Shown here one piece after another: positions 5,918 through 33,256 of a stretch of DNA of 64,000 nucleotides; the stretch's first letter is position 1; every line of letters starts with the position of its first letter. Both the position numbers and the translations under genes were made by a program. The notes beneath the pieces are model-generated. The model was given only the letters and a program-made list of their open reading frames with translations. It was not told where the DNA came from and made no database searches. This DNA comes from Synechococcus sp. UW105 (GTDB lineage: Bacteria; Cyanobacteriota; Cyanobacteriia; PCC-6307; Cyanobiaceae): positions 1 through 64,000 of the forward strand of contig NZ_UCNN01000008.1 in the NCBI RefSeq assembly GCF_900473935.1. The letters are read 5' to 3'.

Positions 5918-6589
5918 ATGAAATCGGACAGCACCCTCCATGCCGTGCGAGTGGCGGTCGATCCCGACCAGCCACCACGACGCAACGAGAGCGGAACAAC
6001 ACGCCAACAGCAGAAGCGTAATGGACTGCTGATCAGCGCAACCGTGATGGCAGGGGTTGGGCTGAGTAGCAGCCTCTGGCTGGCCCACAACTGGCAGCGA
6101 TCCCTACAAGCGCTCAACCGTGAACGCGACCTCCAGATGATCGAGCGACTGCGCCACTTGCCTGTGAACACGCAAGCGAATCAGGCATCAAAGGCTGCCA
6201 CCGCCCCAGCACCCGCGAATGCAGCCAACGCGAATGCTGCCAACGCTGATGCTGCCAACGCTGATGCTGTGCCAACCATCGCAAGCGCCGAACTCCAACC
6301 CCTCACCATTCCTTTGGCGGGCACACTGCCCATCCCCAACGCCATTCCCAGTCCTGAGGAAGACGCAGCGCTGCTGATGGCACCCGCCGAACCACTTCTG
6401 GTGGGAGTCGTGCATGCCGGCGGAGGCCAGGGCTCAGCCATCTTCCAACTCGATCAACTCTCGCTGTCGGCATCCCCGGGCGAAGCGATCGGCAACAGCG
6501 GCTGGCAGCTGCGGTCGGTCCAAACCAATGGAGCCGTGATTGAACGCGATGGCGACGTTCGCAACCTGAGCGTGGGAGGAGCGTTCTGA
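5918..6589 (+). CDS. Membrane-anchored protein with GspC/PilP-like C-terminal domain
   Basis: A short cytoplasmic N-terminus leads to one membrane helix (GLLISATVMAGVGLSSSLWL), then an Ala/Asn/Asp-rich linker and a C-terminal domain of about 70 residues (VGVVHAGGGQGSAIF ... LSVGGAF). The pattern, a residue run about a protein that is non-functional or secreted followed by GSSGW-like and VxRDGxVRxLxVGG elements, resembles the homology region of GspC and PilP, which links inner-membrane and secretin parts of type II secretion or type IV pilus machines. That role is inference from pattern only. The start is unsure: ATGs at 5846, 5903 and 5918 are in frame, and I prefer 5918 because residues before it look non-coding. 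Its stop codon overlaps the proposed CTG start of the next gene, so the two are probably co-translated. Confidence 0.6.
   Translation: MKSDSTLHAVRVAVDPDQPPRRNESGTTRQQQKRNGLLISATVMAGVGLSSSLWLAHNWQRSLQALNRERDLQMIERLRHLPVNTQANQASKAATAPAPANAANANAANADAANADAVPTIASAELQPLTIPLAGTLPIPNAIPSPEEDAALLMAPAEPLLVGVVHAGGGQGSAIFQLDQLSLSASPGEAIGNSGWQLRSVQTNGAVIERDGDVRNLSVGGAF
6215..6274 (+). repeat. Four 15-nt tandem repeats coding an Ala/Asn/Asp linker
   Basis: Units of the form GCNRATGCWGCCAAC repeat about four times within the gene for the GspC-like protein and encode A-N/D-A-A-N. They form the low-complexity periplasmic linker and probably vary in number between strains. Confidence 0.75.
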
Positions 6590-7197
6590 ACCAACCCAGC
6601 ACCCTTCTTCCCTCGCCAACACCCCTGTGGGAAGCAGCAACGGCCGCAGTACTTCGTGGCGAGGGCCCAAGCCCTCTACCCGGTCCTTGGCGCTTGATGC
6701 TGCTGGGAGATGGCAGCCCTACACGCCATCTGCGACTGCTGACCGGCCACCCGGTGGCCGTGCGACTGGTGGCGATGGAACCGGAACCGGAATCGCCCGG
6801 TAGCCAACCATCCCAGCTGCCGCGCGAGGTCAGAGAGCTGGAGCCACCCCTCCTGCGTCGTCAGGTCTGGCTTGACTGCGGCGGACAAACCCTGGCCTGG
6901 GCAGAAAGCTGGTGGAACCAAACCGAAGCCGAACAGCATCTACGCGACCGCAACCTGCCGATCTGGCTCAGCCTCACCCAAGGGCGTTCGGAACTGTTTC
7001 GGGAGGTCGATGGCTTGGCTCTGGTGCAGAGCCCATGGCTGGAGGAGGGCTTCGCGCAGCAAGGACCCTTCTGGAGTCGGCACTACCGCTTCTTCCGCCA
7101 AGGCCGCGAACTGACTGTGATTCGCGAGGTGTTCAGCCCACGGCTTGAACAATGGCTCGGCCCTGCACCTCGCCAACCGCTTCACCTCATTTCATAA
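6586..7197 (+). CDS. Chorismate lyase-like protein (UbiC/DUF98 type), apparent CTG start
   Basis: The protein (203 residues from CTG) shows the features of cyanobacterial chorismate pyruvate-lyases: GPWRLMLLGDGSPTRHL near the N-terminus, LRRQVWLDCGGQTLAWAESWW in the middle and a C-terminal IREVFSP. The enzyme splits chorismate into 4-hydroxybenzoate and pyruvate, the first step towards the plastoquinone ring in cyanobacteria. No ATG or GTG exists before the conserved block, and TTG/ATG at 6694/6697 would delete conserved residues. CTG at 6586 has GGAGG at 6575-6579, six bases upstream, and overlaps the stop of the preceding gene (CTGA). I therefore choose CTG. The family call is fairly sure, the start is a proposal. 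Confidence 0.75.
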   Translation: MNQPSTLLPSPTPLWEAATAAVLRGEGPSPLPGPWRLMLLGDGSPTRHLRLLTGHPVAVRLVAMEPEPESPGSQPSQLPREVRELEPPLLRRQVWLDCGGQTLAWAESWWNQTEAEQHLRDRNLPIWLSLTQGRSELFREVDGLALVQSPWLEEGFAQQGPFWSRHYRFFRQGRELTVIREVFSPRLEQWLGPAPRQPLHLIS

Positions 7198-26912: not shown

Positions 26913-26939
26913 GGTCTCGCCCATTCTGACGAGTGAAAG

Positions 26940-27011
26940 TGGGCGATACTGGGATCGAACCAGTGACAATCTCCTTGTAAGGGAGGTGCTCTACCGCTGA
27001 GCTAATCGCCC
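26940..27011 (-). tRNA. tRNA-Val (anticodon UAC)
   Basis: Read on the minus strand, the gene begins GGGCGATTAGCTCAGCGGTA and folds as a cloverleaf: 7-bp acceptor stem (GGGCGAT/ATCGCCC), 4-bp D stem, anticodon loop CTTACAA with anticodon TAC, and T arm ACTGG-TTCGATC-CCAGT. The discriminator is A (26940) and CCA is not encoded. The anticodon stem has one C-A mismatch at its top pair (27-43). It reads GUA and, by wobble, other Val codons. Confidence 0.96.
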
Positions 27012-28450: not shown

Positions 28451-28518
28451 CGCAGCACCACTCTCAGAACATCGGCCAACAGCTCGGGCGCAAGCCTGCG
28501 CTGAACGCTGAGTGCTTC

Positions 28519-28683
28519 TCAGAGATGACCACCCATGGAGCCCTCTGTCGTGCCCCAAAGCTCACGCTTCGTGGCATCAGCCTTGCGAATGCAATCCTGA
28601 GCCTCGGAGCGGGAGCGACAGTTGCGCGCTCTCTCTTCGAGAGACATCAGGCCAACCAGGCGGACAAGAGTGTGCCGTGGCAT
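28519..28683 (-). CDS. Small protein of 54 residues, unknown
   Basis: Minus-strand frame from ATG 28683 to TGA 28519-28521, giving MPRHTLVRLVGLMSLEERAR followed by a Cys-containing stretch (NCRSRSEAQDCIRKADA) and a polar end. A start at the internal ATG (residue 13) is possible. The helical, charged composition with two Cys looks like protein and not chance reading. Just upstream (28688-28713) lies a 13-bp perfect tandem repeat (unit GGCGTGGAGTCCA on the plus strand). I know no family. Confidence 0.4.
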   Translation of the reverse strand: MPRHTLVRLVGLMSLEERARNCRSRSEAQDCIRKADATKRELWGTTEGSMGGHL

Positions 28684-29326
28684 TGCTGGCGTGGAGTCCA
28701 GGCGTGGAGTCCATCAGAGCCCCTTCATCGTCTTACCTTGATTCAACGTTAACCCTGGCTTAACCAAATGGCCATAGCTAGTCAAAACGTGGGGATGCAC
28801 GTGGATCAACAGGCCGTGGCGTCAGACTTAGTTAGGGCTCAAAACTTTCAGAGCAATCAATTTTTTCGCCCAAATTGATCACAGAGTAAAGATTAAGGCC
28901 ATCAACTCACATCATCCTCCATGTTGAGGGAATCCCAAACACACAAGCTTCAAGGAATTGCAGAATTCGCCTCACCAGCCAATCTGCTGCACCAAAATGA
29001 TTAGCGATTCAAACAGGAGCAGGGCTGCTTATTGACGAGCGAATTGACTGATCAATAAAGCATGATTGCAAAGCTCGTTAACACCAGCAGCCAAAGGCCT
29101 GGCAGAAGCGACTGGAGGAGCAAATGGTCTTCAACAACAATCCAATCTTTTCCATTAATGGATCAAGGAATCAAAACCAAAAATGCATCACAACAAAACA
29201 GCGACAAAGGCAACGCCGCCCAGGCATCAAGCAACAAAAATGACGTTGATGCAAACGTCAAAAATCAATATTGCCTGCACAAAGCAATGCAGAGGCGGGC
29301 AACCTTTCAGAAACAACAAAAATCTT
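28684..29326. other. 643-nt stretch without a convincing gene
   Basis: AT-rich compared with its flanks. It holds a tandem 13-bp repeat (28688-28713), an 8-bp hairpin (28856-28863 pairing with 28872-28879, no following T-run) and a 36-codon plus frame from ATG 28769 that I do not trust. The plus frame 29063-29421 has an odd Gln/Asn/Lys-rich composition and overlaps the minus-strand gene 29327-29587, so I leave it out. No RNA gene was recognised. Confidence 0.5.
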
Positions 29327-29587
29327 TTAGCTGCCAAAGCCCTTCGTTGAAGGAGAACTTTTTTTCTTGCTTGTCTTCGGGGCAGCCGTTTTTCTCTCGG
29401 ACGCAGAAGATTGATCTTTGAAAAACTGCCCATCAAGCCACACCGTGACAATATAAACAACAATGAGAACAGGAACGAGAACCAACCATTGATTCTCAAA
29501 TTGATAAGGCAGATGCTGGATTCCAAAGATGGCCAGGTATCCAGTAATCAGAGTGAAGACAAAGCGTCGGATACTAGCAGGATTCAA
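29327..29587 (-). CDS. Small membrane protein (86 residues), unknown
   Basis: The frame from ATG 29587 gives two membrane helices (IRRFVFTLITGYLAIFGIQ and WLVLVPVLIVVYIVTVWLDG) and a basic Ser/Lys-rich cytoplasmic tail (TSKKKSSPSTKGFGS). The topology and positive-inside tail are typical of a genuine small inner-membrane protein. I recognise no family. It is on the same strand as the arfB cluster but 378 nt downstream of it, with a 16-bp palindrome in the gap, so it probably has its own promoter. Confidence 0.6.
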   Translation of the reverse strand: MNPASIRRFVFTLITGYLAIFGIQHLPYQFENQWLVLVPVLIVVYIVTVWLDGQFFKDQSSASERKTAAPKTSKKKSSPSTKGFGS

Positions 29588-29964
29588 AATGATGAAGCAT
29601 ATGCCCTTATTTTATCGATACGGCAGCATTATCAAGCTGATGGGGAGAAGAAGTCCATCATTATTCATCAGCCCCAGAAAGAGTTACCCAGAGGGATCAT
29701 TCTTCTCGGCGAGCCACTTTGCTGAACGAAAGCTAGAGACGAGTCTGGATCACAACCTGAATCGCTGCTCCTCCTCCAAAACAATGAGGGCTGATTCAAC
29801 TTGTTCGTACCATTCGATCAAGAAGAAAGAAGGAGCACAAACCACCCTTAGTATTGATATCAATACGAATTAACCCTCAATCGGGTCTCAGTCAACATCT
29901 GGCCTACAGCATCGCATCACACTTTGATGATTCTGAGAAGACTCACGACCTAGAAAGATCCAAT
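29588..29964. other. 377-nt intergenic stretch with palindrome
   Basis: Between the 34-codon frame downstream of arfB and the 86-residue membrane protein gene. It holds the perfect 16-bp palindrome at 29851-29866. A plus-strand frame (29529-29873) runs across it antisense to the 86-residue gene and has no protein-like character. Nothing else was seen. Confidence 0.5.
29851..29866. promoter_or_regulatory. Perfect 16-bp palindrome, possible operator
   Basis: GTATTGAT is followed directly by its reverse complement ATCAATAC. A dyad of this length with GTA/TAC ends fits binding by a dimeric regulator. It resembles the NtcA consensus GTA-N8-TAC but has N10 spacing, so NtcA is not implied. It lies upstream of the 86-residue gene and downstream of the arfB cluster, both on the minus strand. 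Confidence 0.35.
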
Positions 29965-30069
29965 TCAGGCGATCAACAGGGCGATCAAAGCTGACATCAA
30001 GAAAATATAGATCGTTGCTCTGTACAACTCTGTTTTGCTGATCGAAGACCTGCTTGTGTATTCAGTCAT
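29965..30069 (-). CDS. 34-residue single-helix membrane microprotein overlapping arfB
   Basis: The ATG at 30069 overlaps the arfB stop (ATGACTGA), and the frame ends with TGA at 29965-29967. The product has a polar N-terminus (MTEYTSRSSISKTELYRA) and one hydrophobic helix (TIYIFLMSALIALLIA) running to the last residue, the layout of a tail-anchored microprotein. Translational coupling with arfB is likely. I know no family; it is not one of the small photosystem or cytochrome subunits I can recall. The main evidence is the overlap and the membrane profile. Confidence 0.45.
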   Translation of the reverse strand: MTEYTSRSSISKTELYRATIYIFLMSALIALLIA

Positions 30070-30499
30070 CAAAAGAGTAGCGAGACTGTCTGCCTTTCTT
30101 GATTTCACCACGCTTTTTCTTGGCGTCAACCCTTTTGCGTTTAGAACTACGAGTTGGACGTGTTTCTTTACGCTGAGGTGGTGGTGGCTTGATCGCCTCC
30201 CTAATCAAATCCGCCAAACGCTTCAAGGCAATCTGACGGTTCTGAAATTGAGATCTCTCTTCAGAAACACAGATTCGCAAGCAACCATCAACAATCCTTG
30301 AAACATAAAATTCCAACAATCTTTGCTTTCGGTATGGTCCTAATGCCTCTGATTGAGAGATATTCCAAGACAATTCAACCGCAGTTTCAACTTTATTGAC
30401 ATTTTGCCCTCCTGCACCAGACGAACGGAAGAATTTCCAAGACAACTCAGCCCGCGGGATGCTGAGCCTTGGGTTAACCACCAGATCCGAATTAAGCAT
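30062..30499 (-). CDS. arfB: ArfB (YaeJ-type) peptidyl-tRNA hydrolase, ribosome rescue
   Basis: The 145-residue protein has the GGQ catalytic motif in SSGAGGQNVNKVETAVEL (GGQ at residues 30-32) and a long basic tail (KRKRVDAKKKRGEIKKGRQSR) that in ArfB enters the mRNA channel of stalled ribosomes. Length and lack of a codon-recognition domain separate it from RF1/RF2. It releases the nascent chain from non-stop complexes. The gene lies in a compact minus-strand cluster: a 52-codon frame ends six bases upstream and a 34-codon frame overlaps its stop. Conservation of the family is certain; partnership with the neighbours is inference. Confidence 0.92.
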   Translation of the reverse strand: MLNSDLVVNPRLSIPRAELSWKFFRSSGAGGQNVNKVETAVELSWNISQSEALGPYRKQRLLEFYVSRIVDGCLRICVSEERSQFQNRQIALKRLADLIREAIKPPPPQRKETRPTRSSKRKRVDAKKKRGEIKKGRQSRYSFDD

Positions 30500-30505
30500 T
30501 CAATA

Positions 30506-30664
30506 CTATTTGTGGGCTTTCCCCTTAGCTACAGGCTTAGGGATCAATGCATTGATAATTTCGGCATAAACAAAGACAAAATTTCTTATCGCCGAGAGCA
30601 GCAGATAAAAAAGCTTTCCGATGACCTTAAAAGTGGCAAGCATGGTCTCCATCAAGAGTTTCAT
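30506..30664 (-). CDS. 52-residue membrane microprotein upstream of arfB
   Basis: The frame runs from ATG 30664 to TAG 30506-30508, ending six bases before arfB and starting three bases after the previous frame. The product has a long hydrophobic to amphipathic helix region (VIGKLFYLLLSAIRNFVFVY) and a basic C-terminus (PKPVAKGKAHK), consistent with a small inner-membrane protein with its tail in the cytoplasm. Internal ATGs (residues 5 and 8) could also serve as start. No family recognised. Confidence 0.5.
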   Translation of the reverse strand: MKLLMETMLATFKVIGKLFYLLLSAIRNFVFVYAEIINALIPKPVAKGKAHK

Positions 30665-30667
30665 TTC

Positions 30668-30832
30668 TCAAGCCACCCGCCTAACTGATTCGACGCCGAA
30701 AAGCTGGATTTGCCTCTTGATCGTGGCTAGATGCAACGAGTAGACATTTTGTTTCATACACAAATCACACTGACATACAAACGGCAGGGAGAGCTCTCGC
30801 TCCGGCTCGCCATTAAAAGGAATAGCAACCAT
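30668..30832 (-). CDS. 54-residue protein with CxCxxC motif
   Basis: The frame from ATG 30832 begins three bases after the stop of the 215-residue gene and ends three bases before the next ATG. The product holds a Cys cluster in FVCQCDLCMKQ (Cys20, Cys22, Cys25), suggesting metal binding, and a basic helical C-terminus (ATIKRQIQLFGVESVRRVA). No membrane segment. I recognise no family. The clean junctions on both sides are the best sign that it is a real cistron. Confidence 0.5.
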   Translation of the reverse strand: MVAIPFNGEPERELSLPFVCQCDLCMKQNVYSLHLATIKRQIQLFGVESVRRVA

Positions 30833-30835
30833 GGT

Positions 30836-31483
30836 TCAGGCCTTCTCCTTGAGCTGACTTTTCAGAGCTTTGATTTGTTGGTCTAATTCAAGATTTGTTT
30901 TTTTGAGCTGTAGGCAGCGACTCCTAAGCTGACTGATCGACTGTTTAGAAATCACCTGCTCAAACTGAGAAATTAGGTCATCAATCCCAATCACAGATGG
31001 CTTGGAAAGCTTTGCCTTCCATCCGGTCAACTGCTTGACATCAGCCTCTGTCACCCGTTCACCAGCGAGCAACTTGCCTTCAACAACCTTCTTTGTCTTG
31101 TCATCTGCATTCGCCACACGCGAAAGTGTTCTGATACCAATCAAGTTGAAAGCATCTGCATCTAACTCAGTTGTGCTCAGCCACTTTTCCCATGAGTTTG
31201 CAAGGTCCTGAATCTCCTTAGCGCTGAAAGGGACTAGGCCTGATTTCTTGAATTGCGTCCATTCACGCGGGCTTGACTTTGACTTGCCGCGCAGAGTCTC
31301 CTTTAACTCAAAGAGATACTTGCCGCAAACGGCCAGATAAGCGCCAGTGGCCTGACGCAACTCAAAAACAGTCTCTTTCATCGTCTCCATCTGAAAATCA
31401 GAGAGACGCGATGTTTCAACACCAGACTTGGCAAAGTCGACCGAGATGTCGGTGACCTGCTCAAGTCGCTGAACAAGGGGCAT
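30836..31483 (-). CDS. Hypothetical coiled-coil protein, 215 residues
   Basis: The protein is helical throughout. Residues ~28-110 include LRQATGAYLAVCGKYLFELKE and WTQFKKSGLVPFSAKEIQDLANSWEKWL, with a pattern like phage or plasmid DUF3102-type proteins, and the last ~45 residues form a coiled coil (LRSRCLQLKKTNLELDQQIKALKSQLKEK). No signal peptide. A DNA- or RNA-binding scaffold is conceivable, but no function can be given. ATG 31483 follows a 38-codon frame by six bases. It is the largest gene of the cluster leading to arfB. Confidence 0.65.
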   Translation of the reverse strand: MPLVQRLEQVTDISVDFAKSGVETSRLSDFQMETMKETVFELRQATGAYLAVCGKYLFELKETLRGKSKSSPREWTQFKKSGLVPFSAKEIQDLANSWEKWLSTTELDADAFNLIGIRTLSRVANADDKTKKVVEGKLLAGERVTEADVKQLTGWKAKLSKPSVIGIDDLISQFEQVISKQSISQLRSRCLQLKKTNLELDQQIKALKSQLKEKA

Positions 31484-31489
31484 GGGCGA

Positions 31490-31606
31490 CTACGCCAGAC
31501 AGAGGCCTTGTAGCGCAGCTATTGGTCTGCAGCCAGTCTGGGATTGGACGAATCGTCCAATGGGGCCAAGAGCTTTGCCCTGCAGAGAAACGCAACATCG
31601 GCCCAT
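31490..31606 (-). CDS. Possible 38-residue leader-like small protein
   Basis: The frame from ATG 31606 to TAG 31490-31492 is preceded by a near-perfect Shine-Dalgarno sequence, AGGAGGAG, with four bases between it and the ATG. It ends six bases before the 215-residue gene. The product (MGRCCVSLQGKALGPIGRFV...) has three more Cys/Gly-rich turns and no clear domain. The strong ribosome site, stronger than that of the following gene, suggests a leader peptide whose translation feeds the downstream gene. The protein itself is unconvincing. Confidence 0.4.
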   Translation of the reverse strand: MGRCCVSLQGKALGPIGRFVQSQTGCRPIAALQGLCLA

Positions 31607-31734
31607 TCAACTCCTCCTGCCGAATCAAGAAGCACAATGCTCGCAATCCTGGGCCTGCTGCAGAAGCTTTGATGCTCAAATAAAGCCTGGCCAAGTTCTT
31701 GCCGAAGCGAGTGAAAGAAAACAGGGCTTCCACC

Positions 31735-31848
31735 TCAAAAGTCTTGCTTTAGCGTCAGCATTCGGTGCTTGAACGGTCCAGCCTTCTTGAAGAGGAGGCC
31801 TTGCTCATTGGAGCACCACCCAAGGATCCATCCCAAAAGCATGCACAT
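31735..31848 (-). CDS. 37-residue membrane microprotein (or C-terminal half of a split gene)
   Basis: ATG 31848 starts MCMLLGWILGWCSNEQGLLF, a hydrophobic helix followed by a basic tail ending in KHRMLTLKQDF. In the same frame, hydrophobic codons continue upstream (FCVFIAF) to a TAG at 31885-31887, which ends the 42-codon frame. So this is either a separate short cistron or the C-terminal half of a protein interrupted by one amber codon. Membrane profile and composition are protein-like. No family recognised. Confidence 0.4.
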   Translation of the reverse strand: MCMLLGWILGWCSNEQGLLFKKAGPFKHRMLTLKQDF

Positions 31849-31884
31849 AAAGGCAATAAAGACGCAAAAATTGGGCTGAATTGA

Positions 31885-32013
31885 CTAGATAGGTTGAATA
31901 TTCGATTGTTCCTGCGGATCCGCTTTGATCTGATTCTTCGCCTTAAGCGCCAACTTTTCAGCCACTTTTTCAGCCACTGATGAAGCAAAATAATCATTTA
32001 GGCCTTTAACCAA
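31885..32013 (-). CDS. 42-residue amphipathic small protein (or N-terminal half of a split gene)
   Basis: A TTG at 32013, with AGAGGG about eight bases upstream, opens a frame to TAG at 31885-31887. The product has a strong amphipathic helix (SSVAEKVAEKLALKAKNQIK) and a polar end (DPQEQSNIQPI). The next frame, in phase behind the amber codon, encodes a membrane helix. Read as one, it would be a protein of about 92 residues with a cytoplasmic helix and a C-terminal membrane anchor. Confidence 0.4.
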   Translation of the reverse strand: MVKGLNDYFASSVAEKVAEKLALKAKNQIKADPQEQSNIQPI

Positions 32014-32090
32014 GCTTCAACCCTCTTGAGATCGACAAAATCGTGATGTGATCTGGTGTCAACGCATGCAAGTGTGTTCCCAGCCGCGGC

Positions 32091-32210
32091 TCACAGCTCG
32101 GACGCCTGACCCCTGCTCAACACCATTGTGTCCGGCACGGAGCAACCGGCATCGCCAGGCAAGCCGCGAGGAGACAGCAGCATGTAGGAGACAGCACCAC
32201 CAACTTGCAT
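32091..32210 (-). CDS. Doubtful 39-codon frame
   Basis: ATG 32210 to TGA 32091-32093 encodes MQVGGAVSYMLLSPRGLPGD and a further 19 residues. There is no ribosome site and no domain. I list it because it lies in a stretch of about 240 nt without another frame on this strand; it may equally be part of an untranslated leader or a small RNA. Confidence 0.2.
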   Translation of the reverse strand: MQVGGAVSYMLLSPRGLPGDAGCSVPDTMVLSRGQASEL

Positions 32211-32248
32211 AAATCGACACAGTCAAAGGGAGCCACTACCGGTAGTGT

Positions 32249-32404
32249 GTGGTCGTTCCAAGCGGACTACAGCTGGTGCTCAAGATCCTTGTTCTGGTGG
32301 TCTTCAGCCTGCAGACCTGGGCCATCTATGAGGCCAAACAGGCAGCAGCCGAAATCGAAATGACCCATGAAGGCGTGAAACGCCAGATCACCCCTGGTTG
32401 GTGA
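32249..32404 (+). CDS. Possible 51-residue single-helix membrane protein
   Basis: A plus-strand frame from GTG 32249 to TGA 32402-32404 encodes a hydrophobic helix (LVLKILVLVVFSLQTWAIYE) and a charged C-terminus (IEMTHEGVKRQITPGW). A later GTG at 32276 could be the start. The profile is that of a small bitopic membrane protein, and it fits exactly between two minus-strand frames. There is no clear ribosome site for either start codon. Confidence 0.35.
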   Translation: MVVPSGLQLVLKILVLVVFSLQTWAIYEAKQAAAEIEMTHEGVKRQITPGW

Positions 32405-32430: not shown

Positions 32431-33120
32431 TCATTCAAACAAGTTCGTTCTCAAAGCCTCAAACTTGCCGTCCCCACCGGATAAGCCATCAGGGATACGG
32501 AAATCAATCACATCCCATACAGGCCGATTGAGATAATTGCCAAGCAGCTGAGCATCCTCTCGAATCGCCGCGAGCGAGCCGTGGTCTGTCACGTTCAAGC
32601 GGCTGCCGTCGCGACAAACCAAATTGAGTTCGTAGCTGTAATAGGAACTCTTATTGCCACGCACATATTCACGAATCAACTGAATCGCATGAACCTCCTT
32701 GAGGTTGTGAACGGTTGTTCCCTGGATGAACTGACTTGAAAACTGGTCAAAACAGCATTCCTTGCTGCGCATCCTCCAGATCAGAAACGCCCCGATCGCC
32801 ACGAACAAGAGCGGGAACAGCAAAGACATCGAGAAGGCGCCAGGGTCCACACCACCGGTCGATAGAGAAGCAATCGCAGAGATCAACCCAACTGCAAGGA
32901 ACACTGCAGAAAATAGGTACGCGCCGAGGGTTGTCTTGAAGCTGAGGCTGGAACTCGTCAGGCTTTTGGTTCGTGTGGCCCGATGCGTGCAGAAATTCGT
33001 TCCTCCACCCACAAGCGGAGTCCACGCCACGTTCCAGGCCACTTCATCGTTGAAGCTGCTGAGATCCAGAAGTTCCCGCTTGTCCTGGAACACCGACAGC
33101 AGGCTCTGAACAAATCCCAT
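32431..33120 (-). CDS. Hypothetical membrane protein, 229 residues
   Basis: From ATG 33120 the protein has a cytoplasmic N-terminus, two membrane helices ([20 protein letters not shown] and [20 protein letters not shown]) and a C-terminal soluble domain of about 100 residues ([23 protein letters not shown]...[19 protein letters not shown]) with the look of a PH-like membrane domain as in many bacterial two-helix proteins. An ATG at 33243 would add a Cys-rich segment unlike protein. The function is unknown. It is divergent from speE and is the first gene of the minus-strand block. Confidence 0.7.
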
Positions 33121-33256
33121 CAGCCAACCTCTGCAACATTCACAGCCATGCTGCACCAGCCCAACAGGAATCAAGCGGCATTGGCAGACGACATTGTGGC
33201 GGCAGGACCCGACGCTGCCCTTAGCTGAAGACAGCAATCGCAAGGCTCAACCAGTC

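Follow-up and report, generated by a model that had tools for sequence, protein, structure and literature searches.

How did a gene for ribosome rescue come to stand in one compact block with a coiled-coil gene and several very small genes? The question arises in Synechococcus sp. UW105, on contig NZ_UCNN01000008.1 of assembly GCF_900473935.1, where positions 1 to 64,000 were analyzed (64,000 nucleotides (nt), hereafter the window). The initial annotation had described six minus-strand frames at 29965–31606, in order ORF1 (38 codons), CC (215 residues), C54, M52, arfB and M34, as an operon with four microproteins and as a possible module acting on or signaling from rescued ribosomes. The reading that we find reasonably probable is a different one: CC would be the autoregulated regulator of a mobile element that has captured arfB, with an operator followed by a five-gene operon, CC-C54-M52-arfB-M34, under repression by CC. 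The window's own genome is denoted as G000, and UW140 (G029), the sole relative in the genus that carries the block, was used for alignment. The features are as follows.

28451–32272, no strand: AT-rich replacement island between mazG and a conserved 270-residue gene/speE, delimited by GC content and synteny
31484–31627, minus strand: leader and putative operator region, holding the 38-codon frame (31490–31606), which is not a gene
31544–31560, no strand: palindrome TTGGACGA-N-TCGTCCAA, 61–77 nt upstream of CC; 19 bp with the flanking A/T
30836–31483, minus strand: CC, 215-residue protein with a helical, DNA-binding-like core (about 49–155) and a long, coiled-coil-like C-terminal helix (183–214)
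30668–30832, minus strand: C54, 54-residue protein with CxCxxC; 7 synonymous and 6 nonsynonymous changes against UW140
30506–30664, minus strand: M52, 52-residue hydrophobic protein; relatives lie directly upstream of arfB in the genomes G001 and G007
30062–30499, minus strand: arfB, alternative ribosome-rescue factor (GGQ, basic tail), with models over their cut-offs
29965–30069, minus strand: M34, 34-residue protein with a C-terminal hydrophobic segment; conserved against UW140

All six frames were reproduced with their coordinates, the gaps of 6, 3, 3 and 6 nt and the 8-nt ATGACTGA overlap. The chain is also improbable by chance, as had been proposed: counting ATG-initiated frames of 34 or more codons, the region yields six linked frames, and among 300 dinucleotide-preserving shuffles none reached five and seven reached four. 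The accompanying claim that all four microproteins are real does not extend to the 38-codon frame, which is non-coding; the compact operon stands for five genes, apparently co-transcribed and with conserved small proteins, but not for this frame. Comparison with UW140 revealed constraint on four genes, namely CC (22 synonymous and 6 nonsynonymous changes, dN/dS 0.07, synonymous excess p = 4e-10), arfB (10 and 9, dN/dS 0.25, p = 0.004), M34 (5 and 0, p = 5e-4) and C54 (dN/dS 0.23, p = 0.016). For M52, this comparison is uninformative, with 2 synonymous and 3 nonsynonymous changes (p = 0.31) in a gene too invariant to tell; against G001, its synonymous excess has a p value of 0.007. Between the two strains, the block as a whole is more similar than the non-coding sequence that flanks it. 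On the strand of the block, a consensus scan detected nothing promoter-like within it and nothing terminator-like before 29887. Since C54, M52, arfB and M34 follow CC without any such site up to this position, arfB would share the control proposed for CC. The ATGACTGA overlap was considered as a sign of coupling and rejected; because ArfB ends in Asp-Asp-stop (GAT GAC TGA), the overlap is a by-product of its C-terminus.

The 38-codon frame belongs to the leader of the operon. As a gene, it was rejected: in UW140, its ATG is ATA and its third codon is TGA, with a dN/dS of 1.07. No coding constraint against UW140 was found in any of the three frames of the 144-nt leader, though 119 of the 144 bases are identical. 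The 6-nt gap between this frame and CC arises because ORF1 is in frame with CC and is closed by a TAG, which lies two codons before the ATG of CC and is CAG in UW140. Inside ORF1 lies the palindrome, whose full form TTGGACGATTCGTCCAA is perfect (31544–31560) and which, judging from its sequence and placement, is a probable operator of CC.

The proposal is based on the recurrence of the palindrome at one place in other genomes. CC matches were found in 42 of 400 family genomes (54 places, including the window's own genome and UW140), a sample of the larger family. Seventeen longer context loci, chosen by hand, cover 19 of the 52 places that remain when the window and UW140 are set aside. A like core is located at a similar place upstream of divergent CC genes in L073, L074, L079–L081, L082 and L083, and palindrome forms with even spacing stand upstream of CC in L085 and L088. 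In the 221,685 bases of the 17 context loci, the core ACGANTCGT has six sites, all just upstream of CC, of which three (L079–L081) come from close relatives; it occurs once in the window. The form TTGNACGANTCGTNCAA is present exactly once in each of five of 12 genomes (G000, G172, G100, G059 and G147), always 33–77 nt upstream of CC, while its backward control is present in none of the 12; it is missing from the other seven, four of which carry CC (UW140, G072, G081 and G155). By a consensus drawn from the window and UW140, 12 of 21 CC upstream regions score above shuffles (p <= 0.037), and 10 of 19 do so without these two. Since the palindrome keeps its place at CC genes and is unseen elsewhere in the context loci, it would be a mark of autoregulation. 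At one further locus (L075), a perfect inverted repeat with 33-bp arms occupies 30–96 nt upstream of position 2816, where the CC gene lacks the usual palindrome.

The CC members can be aligned as one family over the core and, for the most part, as far as the termini. The models of Pfam, NCBIfam and PHROG offer no convincing name for this family, and coiled-coil chains are among its weak profile matches. An AlphaFold2 model from six sequences has a mean pLDDT of 72.9, with blocks averaging 87–92 across residues 91–150. When the model was compared with 302 chains by VIA-align, 10 of the 14 best rows were ParB/Spo0J/KorB/SopB DNA-binding domains (Z 7.8 to 4.7, 96–114 residues aligned), a level at which Z, being under 8, may reflect merely a common arrangement; the remaining four were three Raf1 chains and one PDCD5-like protein. 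A DNA-binding role for CC is likely. KorB of plasmid RK2, a member of the ParB family, would share with CC a helix-turn-helix (HTH) fold, similar in prediction (1r71, Z 6.3; 8qa9, Z 4.8; both again under 8), a short operator (16 bp for KorB, putative for CC) and the role of a regulator on a mobile element, as far as the available part of its description shows (PMC11790492). CC differs from KorB in its 215 residues, in the lack of a ParB domain among its Pfam matches and in a site found at its own gene only among the loci examined; its core site is GACGANTCGTC. KfrA of plasmids RK2 and RA3 consists of an N-terminal HTH and an alpha-helical coiled-coil tail and acts as an autorepressor at its own promoter, according to the accessible portion of the source (PMC7783346), and CC is proposed to be alike. 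In the same portion, the KfrA(RA3) operator comprises five 9-bp direct repeats, in contrast to the palindrome of CC (PMC7783346). The tail of CC is also much shorter, no KfrA model is among the Pfam matches listed, and no sequence relation was found. DUF3102 phage proteins provide two of the best three BFVD rows (prob 0.99 and 1.00; E 0.011 and 0.051), but no BFVD row reaches E <= 0.001 and the TM-scores are 0.33–0.38; the window's CC itself has no DUF3102 match at E <= 1.

The CC family is carried in part by integrative elements of picocyanobacteria whose composition is phage-like. Full-length tyrosine recombinases are encoded in five of the 17 context loci (L073, L083, L085, L088 and L089), and fragments are found in one more (L078) and in the short locus L071. 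T7-like RNA polymerases are present in four of the 17 (two frames in L073; L082, L083 and L085). In three of the five, the recombinase gene lies ahead of CC on the same strand, at a distance of 100 nt in L073, 676 nt in L083, with a short frame between, and 468 nt in L088. Of the four recombinases run through Pfam or PHROG scans, those of L083 and L085 gave a score and those of L073 and L088 gave none; the latter two, the recombinase of L089 and the L073 RNA polymerase were assigned through their BLAST cluster. The clearest element spans two loci (L113 11358 to L083 11326), is approximately 16 kb long with frames of 34–47% GC, and is inserted within a comM/yifB-like gene whose surroundings have 61–71% GC. 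It carries a T7-like RNA polymerase, a tyrosine recombinase, CC and a Gp2.5-like single-stranded DNA-binding protein adjoining CC. The tycheposons of Prochlorococcus are likewise tyrosine-recombinase elements of picocyanobacteria, in the part of their description at hand (PMC10872708). Relative to that part (PMC10872708), some CC elements differ by a T7-like RNA polymerase and one by its position inside a comM-like gene, and the window block has no recombinase. The block was also considered as a tycheposon itself, with a recombinase within the element at a tRNA border, and this was rejected: none of the five recombinases has a match in the window at E <= 1e-3, and the tRNA-Val gene at 26939–27011 lies outside the island. 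The idea that CC belongs to the genes of free phages found no support. No relative was detected in 50,697 phage records (queries: the window protein and one relative). Pattern scans of viral contigs, for which the queries were the window protein, three relatives and an alignment of seven rows, gave none either, although such a scan reaches only relatives sharing short exact peptides.

The ParB and SopB rows, a recombinase within about 2 kb of CC in five of the 17 context loci and the Gp2.5-like neighbor would also fit a factor of the ParB or RDF type that acts in partition, replication or excision, for which the palindrome would serve as a partition or replication site. We consider this very unlikely. 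Within the context loci, the sites are confined to the stretch just ahead of CC, which is where an autoregulator would have them; neither the four Pfam families for the window's CC (E <= 1) nor the matches listed (25 of 62) for 21 relatives include a CTP-binding ParB domain; and CC is under strong selection in the window, where a search with five recombinases found none at E <= 1e-3.

Several observations on the family stand beside these results. G000 holds two other tyrosine recombinases akin to those at CC genes (G000:C7:73392-74438 and G000:C29:42606-43511). In genus g56, a chromosomal CC copy is located near the glycyl-tRNA synthetase gene (L085 14669–15340, L086 7949–8620 and L087 7688–8359), with a LexA-type box at −67, and related copies in L071 and L078 have fragments of a recombinase nearby; the g56 copy looks like a domesticated element regulator. 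Tiny frames follow CC in L074, L076, L078, L082, L085, L086 and L088, and several end in Ala-Ala, possibly as degron-like ends.

The identity of ArfB agrees with the initial annotation: the protein scores 168.6 bits with the NCBIfam ArfB model NF006718 (cut-off 100) and 84.2 bits with PF00472 (cut-off 35). Its translation contains the SSGAGGQN motif and a Lys/Arg-rich C-terminal tail; a GGQ motif and a basic C-terminal tail define the ArfB family. Whereas the protein resembles ArfB (YaeJ) in this model score, its operon setting and regulator are different here.

The surroundings suggest that the gene itself is not the ancestral one. The GC content is 0.47–0.51 in the island and 0.60–0.62 outside. 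In all 13 genus relatives whose surroundings were fetched, arfB lies between mazG and speE, and in G005, about 0.85 kb with a native arfB occupies the place of the island. G005 is the nearest fetched relative after UW140 by SpeE, with 88% identity in SpeE and 85% in SpeB, but its ArfB is only 54% identical to that of the window. The window's ArfB is 81% identical to that of G007 and 80% to that of G001, where SpeE is 82% identical. G000 has a single arfB match at E <= 1e-10. Because of this mismatch between ArfB and SpeE identities, the low GC of the island and the single arfB match, the native arfB was most likely replaced by the AT-rich version. In G022, a relative of the 270-residue gene (32431–33243, minus strand) is situated 18 nt ahead of the native arfB, and in five other loci of the genus, frames that look similar by eye stop 16–18 nt short of arfB; the 270-residue gene is perhaps the ancestral operon partner of arfB, separated from it by the island. 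A search for tmRNA by RF00023 gave only sub-threshold matches in five of five genomes (33 of 35 among the matches listed were 65–113 nt long) and is uninformative.

The small proteins differ in their distribution. C54 is convincing in G000 and UW140 only (3 of 400 genomes matched), belongs to no known family and has no convincing relative beyond UW140, with one weak match in G094 (E 0.028); unlike M52 and M34, it lacks a relative beside arfB elsewhere. M52 matches 11 of 400 genomes at E <= 0.05, of which five were counted as convincing (G000, G029, G001, G007 and G289); the other six are weak (E 0.002–0.047), with internal stops in four (G033, G269, G277 and G388). Not all relatives of M52 adjoin arfB: G289 holds one elsewhere, and UW140 has another at a second locus. 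That second frame (L104 8276–8428, minus strand) is located about 2.8 kb from a tyrosine recombinase (L104 4153–5511). M34 matched five of 251 genomes, three of them convincingly; the weak matches in G085 and G250 each contain an internal stop. In G055, which belongs to another genus, the M34 relative follows an ArfB of 67% identity and starts at the same overlap, and its 28 codons have lost the hydrophobic end. In the same island, a further 86-codon frame with a TTG start (29327–29587, minus strand) is hydrophobic by eye and of no known family, with 20 synonymous and 5 nonsynonymous changes against UW140 (p 4e-9).

The occurrence of M52 and M34 each beside arfB in another lineage is what one would expect of the originally proposed module, uncharacterised and acting on or signaling from rescued ribosomes. 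This now appears highly improbable, and a general ribosome-rescue module is not supported. Against it, part of the CC family is linked to elements, C54 was convincing in no more than 2 of 400 genomes, one supposed gene is a leader with a palindrome, and an arfB match is present in 27 of 31 genus genomes while CC and M34 were found in two each. The proposed tie of the coiled-coil protein to rescue is not supported either: CC was seen to share an operon with arfB in two genomes only, and a fair share of its loci examined are linked to integrative elements. Nothing found points to an action of the small proteins on rescued ribosomes or to signaling from them. A defense-system reading gained no support, as PADLOC at E <= 0.1 returned one weak match, for ArfB.

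The distribution of the genes also bears on whether CC controls arfB at all. CC and C54 could be an element leftover that adjoins an exchanged M52-arfB-M34 cassette by chance at a mazG–speE hot spot, in which case CC would regulate only itself and arfB would be expressed as before. A recent neutral linkage of this kind is possible because only two closely related genomes carry the full arrangement. The M52-arfB and arfB-M34 pairs occur without CC, M52-like genes occur away from arfB, and a search of 45 other CC loci, 28 of them short and 17 long, gave no arfB at E <= 1e-3. The near case is G081, in which CC (L117 3469–4107) and arfB (6355–6786), both on the minus strand, are separated by 2.2 kb with three opposite-strand frames and no operator core; this nearness is likely due to chance. 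The 3- and 6-nt gaps, the absence of candidate terminators and promoters from the junctions on that strand, and the greater likeness of the block than of its non-coding flanks between the two strains speak against mere adjacency, which we regard as possible but on balance unlikely.

The capture of arfB by an autoregulated CC must itself be weighed against a number of results. An operon common to CC and arfB was seen in just two genomes, which are close relatives. Upstream of CC, the consensus scan yielded no promoter, and its site numbers were near the shuffle level. M52 gives no significant coding signal when the two closest strains are compared. The fold match lies below the reliable range (best Z 7.8), Foldseek against the PDB gave no CC row below E 1, the viral fold rows have E values of 0.011 or worse with TM-scores of about 0.33–0.38 and rmsd of 13–22 among the best four, and DUF3102 (PF11300) is merely hinted at, with matches in 3 of 21 CC members (best E 0.015). 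Twelve of the 17 context loci lack a full recombinase, and none was found near the window block in the search described above. Nine of 21 CC upstream regions, including the chromosomal g56 copies, lack the palindrome by shuffle score. With at most one mismatch in 16 positions, the palindrome is a single site in G000 and in UW140 and is absent from G001, G007 and G005, in which CC was not found, but the backward control at one mismatch gives one or two sites per strand in G000 and UW140, so that a single near-match is at chance level. The place of the palindrome, not its count, is the evidence.

For the capture of arfB by CC, the following course can be envisaged. An AT-rich arfB cassette (M52-arfB, M34) and an element-type CC gene with its operator would have taken the place of the native arfB, between mazG and speE, in the common ancestor of the window strain and UW140. 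By analogy with KfrA and KorB on plasmids, a CC dimer, probably held by the coiled coil, would bind the palindrome TTGGACGA-N-TCGTCCAA and repress its own promoter. Titration or inactivation of CC would then lead to expression of the whole operon, arfB included. The benefit may be that ArfB is raised or timed when mRNAs break, for example under phage attack or DNA damage. In a stronger version, CC would respond to an active element or phage or to DNA damage by freeing arfB and its small membrane partners, and ribosomes stalled on broken mRNA would be cleared just when an element or phage is active; this version strikes us as distinctly doubtful.

LexA-type boxes also stand at some CC genes. 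The cyanobacterial LexA box is given as RGTACNNNDGTWCB and AGTACWNWTGTACT in the available portion of the source (PMC3091678). At no more than one mismatch on the coding strand, a LexA-type box is located upstream of 9 of 21 CC genes, in seven of the nine at −67 or −68; four of the nine regions are orthologous copies of one place, and the background amounts to 74 sites on both strands of 221,685 bases. Some CC genes may therefore have a tie to DNA damage. No such box is present at the window's CC at this threshold, and the window operon seems to have lost a LexA-type box or never had one.

The control of arfB seems to be little known; in Escherichia coli, expression from the native locus is too low to rescue viability, as stated in the portion of the report available (PMC11633108). 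In the literature, which was covered only in part, no description of the CC regulator family or of the operon was found, and the family is without a name in the protein and phage libraries searched. In the present genome, the sole arfB found stands in an apparent operon headed by a putative autoregulator with a predicted operator, and control of ribosome rescue thereby becomes directly testable. A regulator family and its DNA site are outlined here that are common to integrative elements of picocyanobacteria bearing T7 RNA polymerase, and in marine genomes the CC family may serve as a marker of these elements and of remnants that have been domesticated. A housekeeping repair gene, arfB, may have come under the control of a mobile element's machinery.

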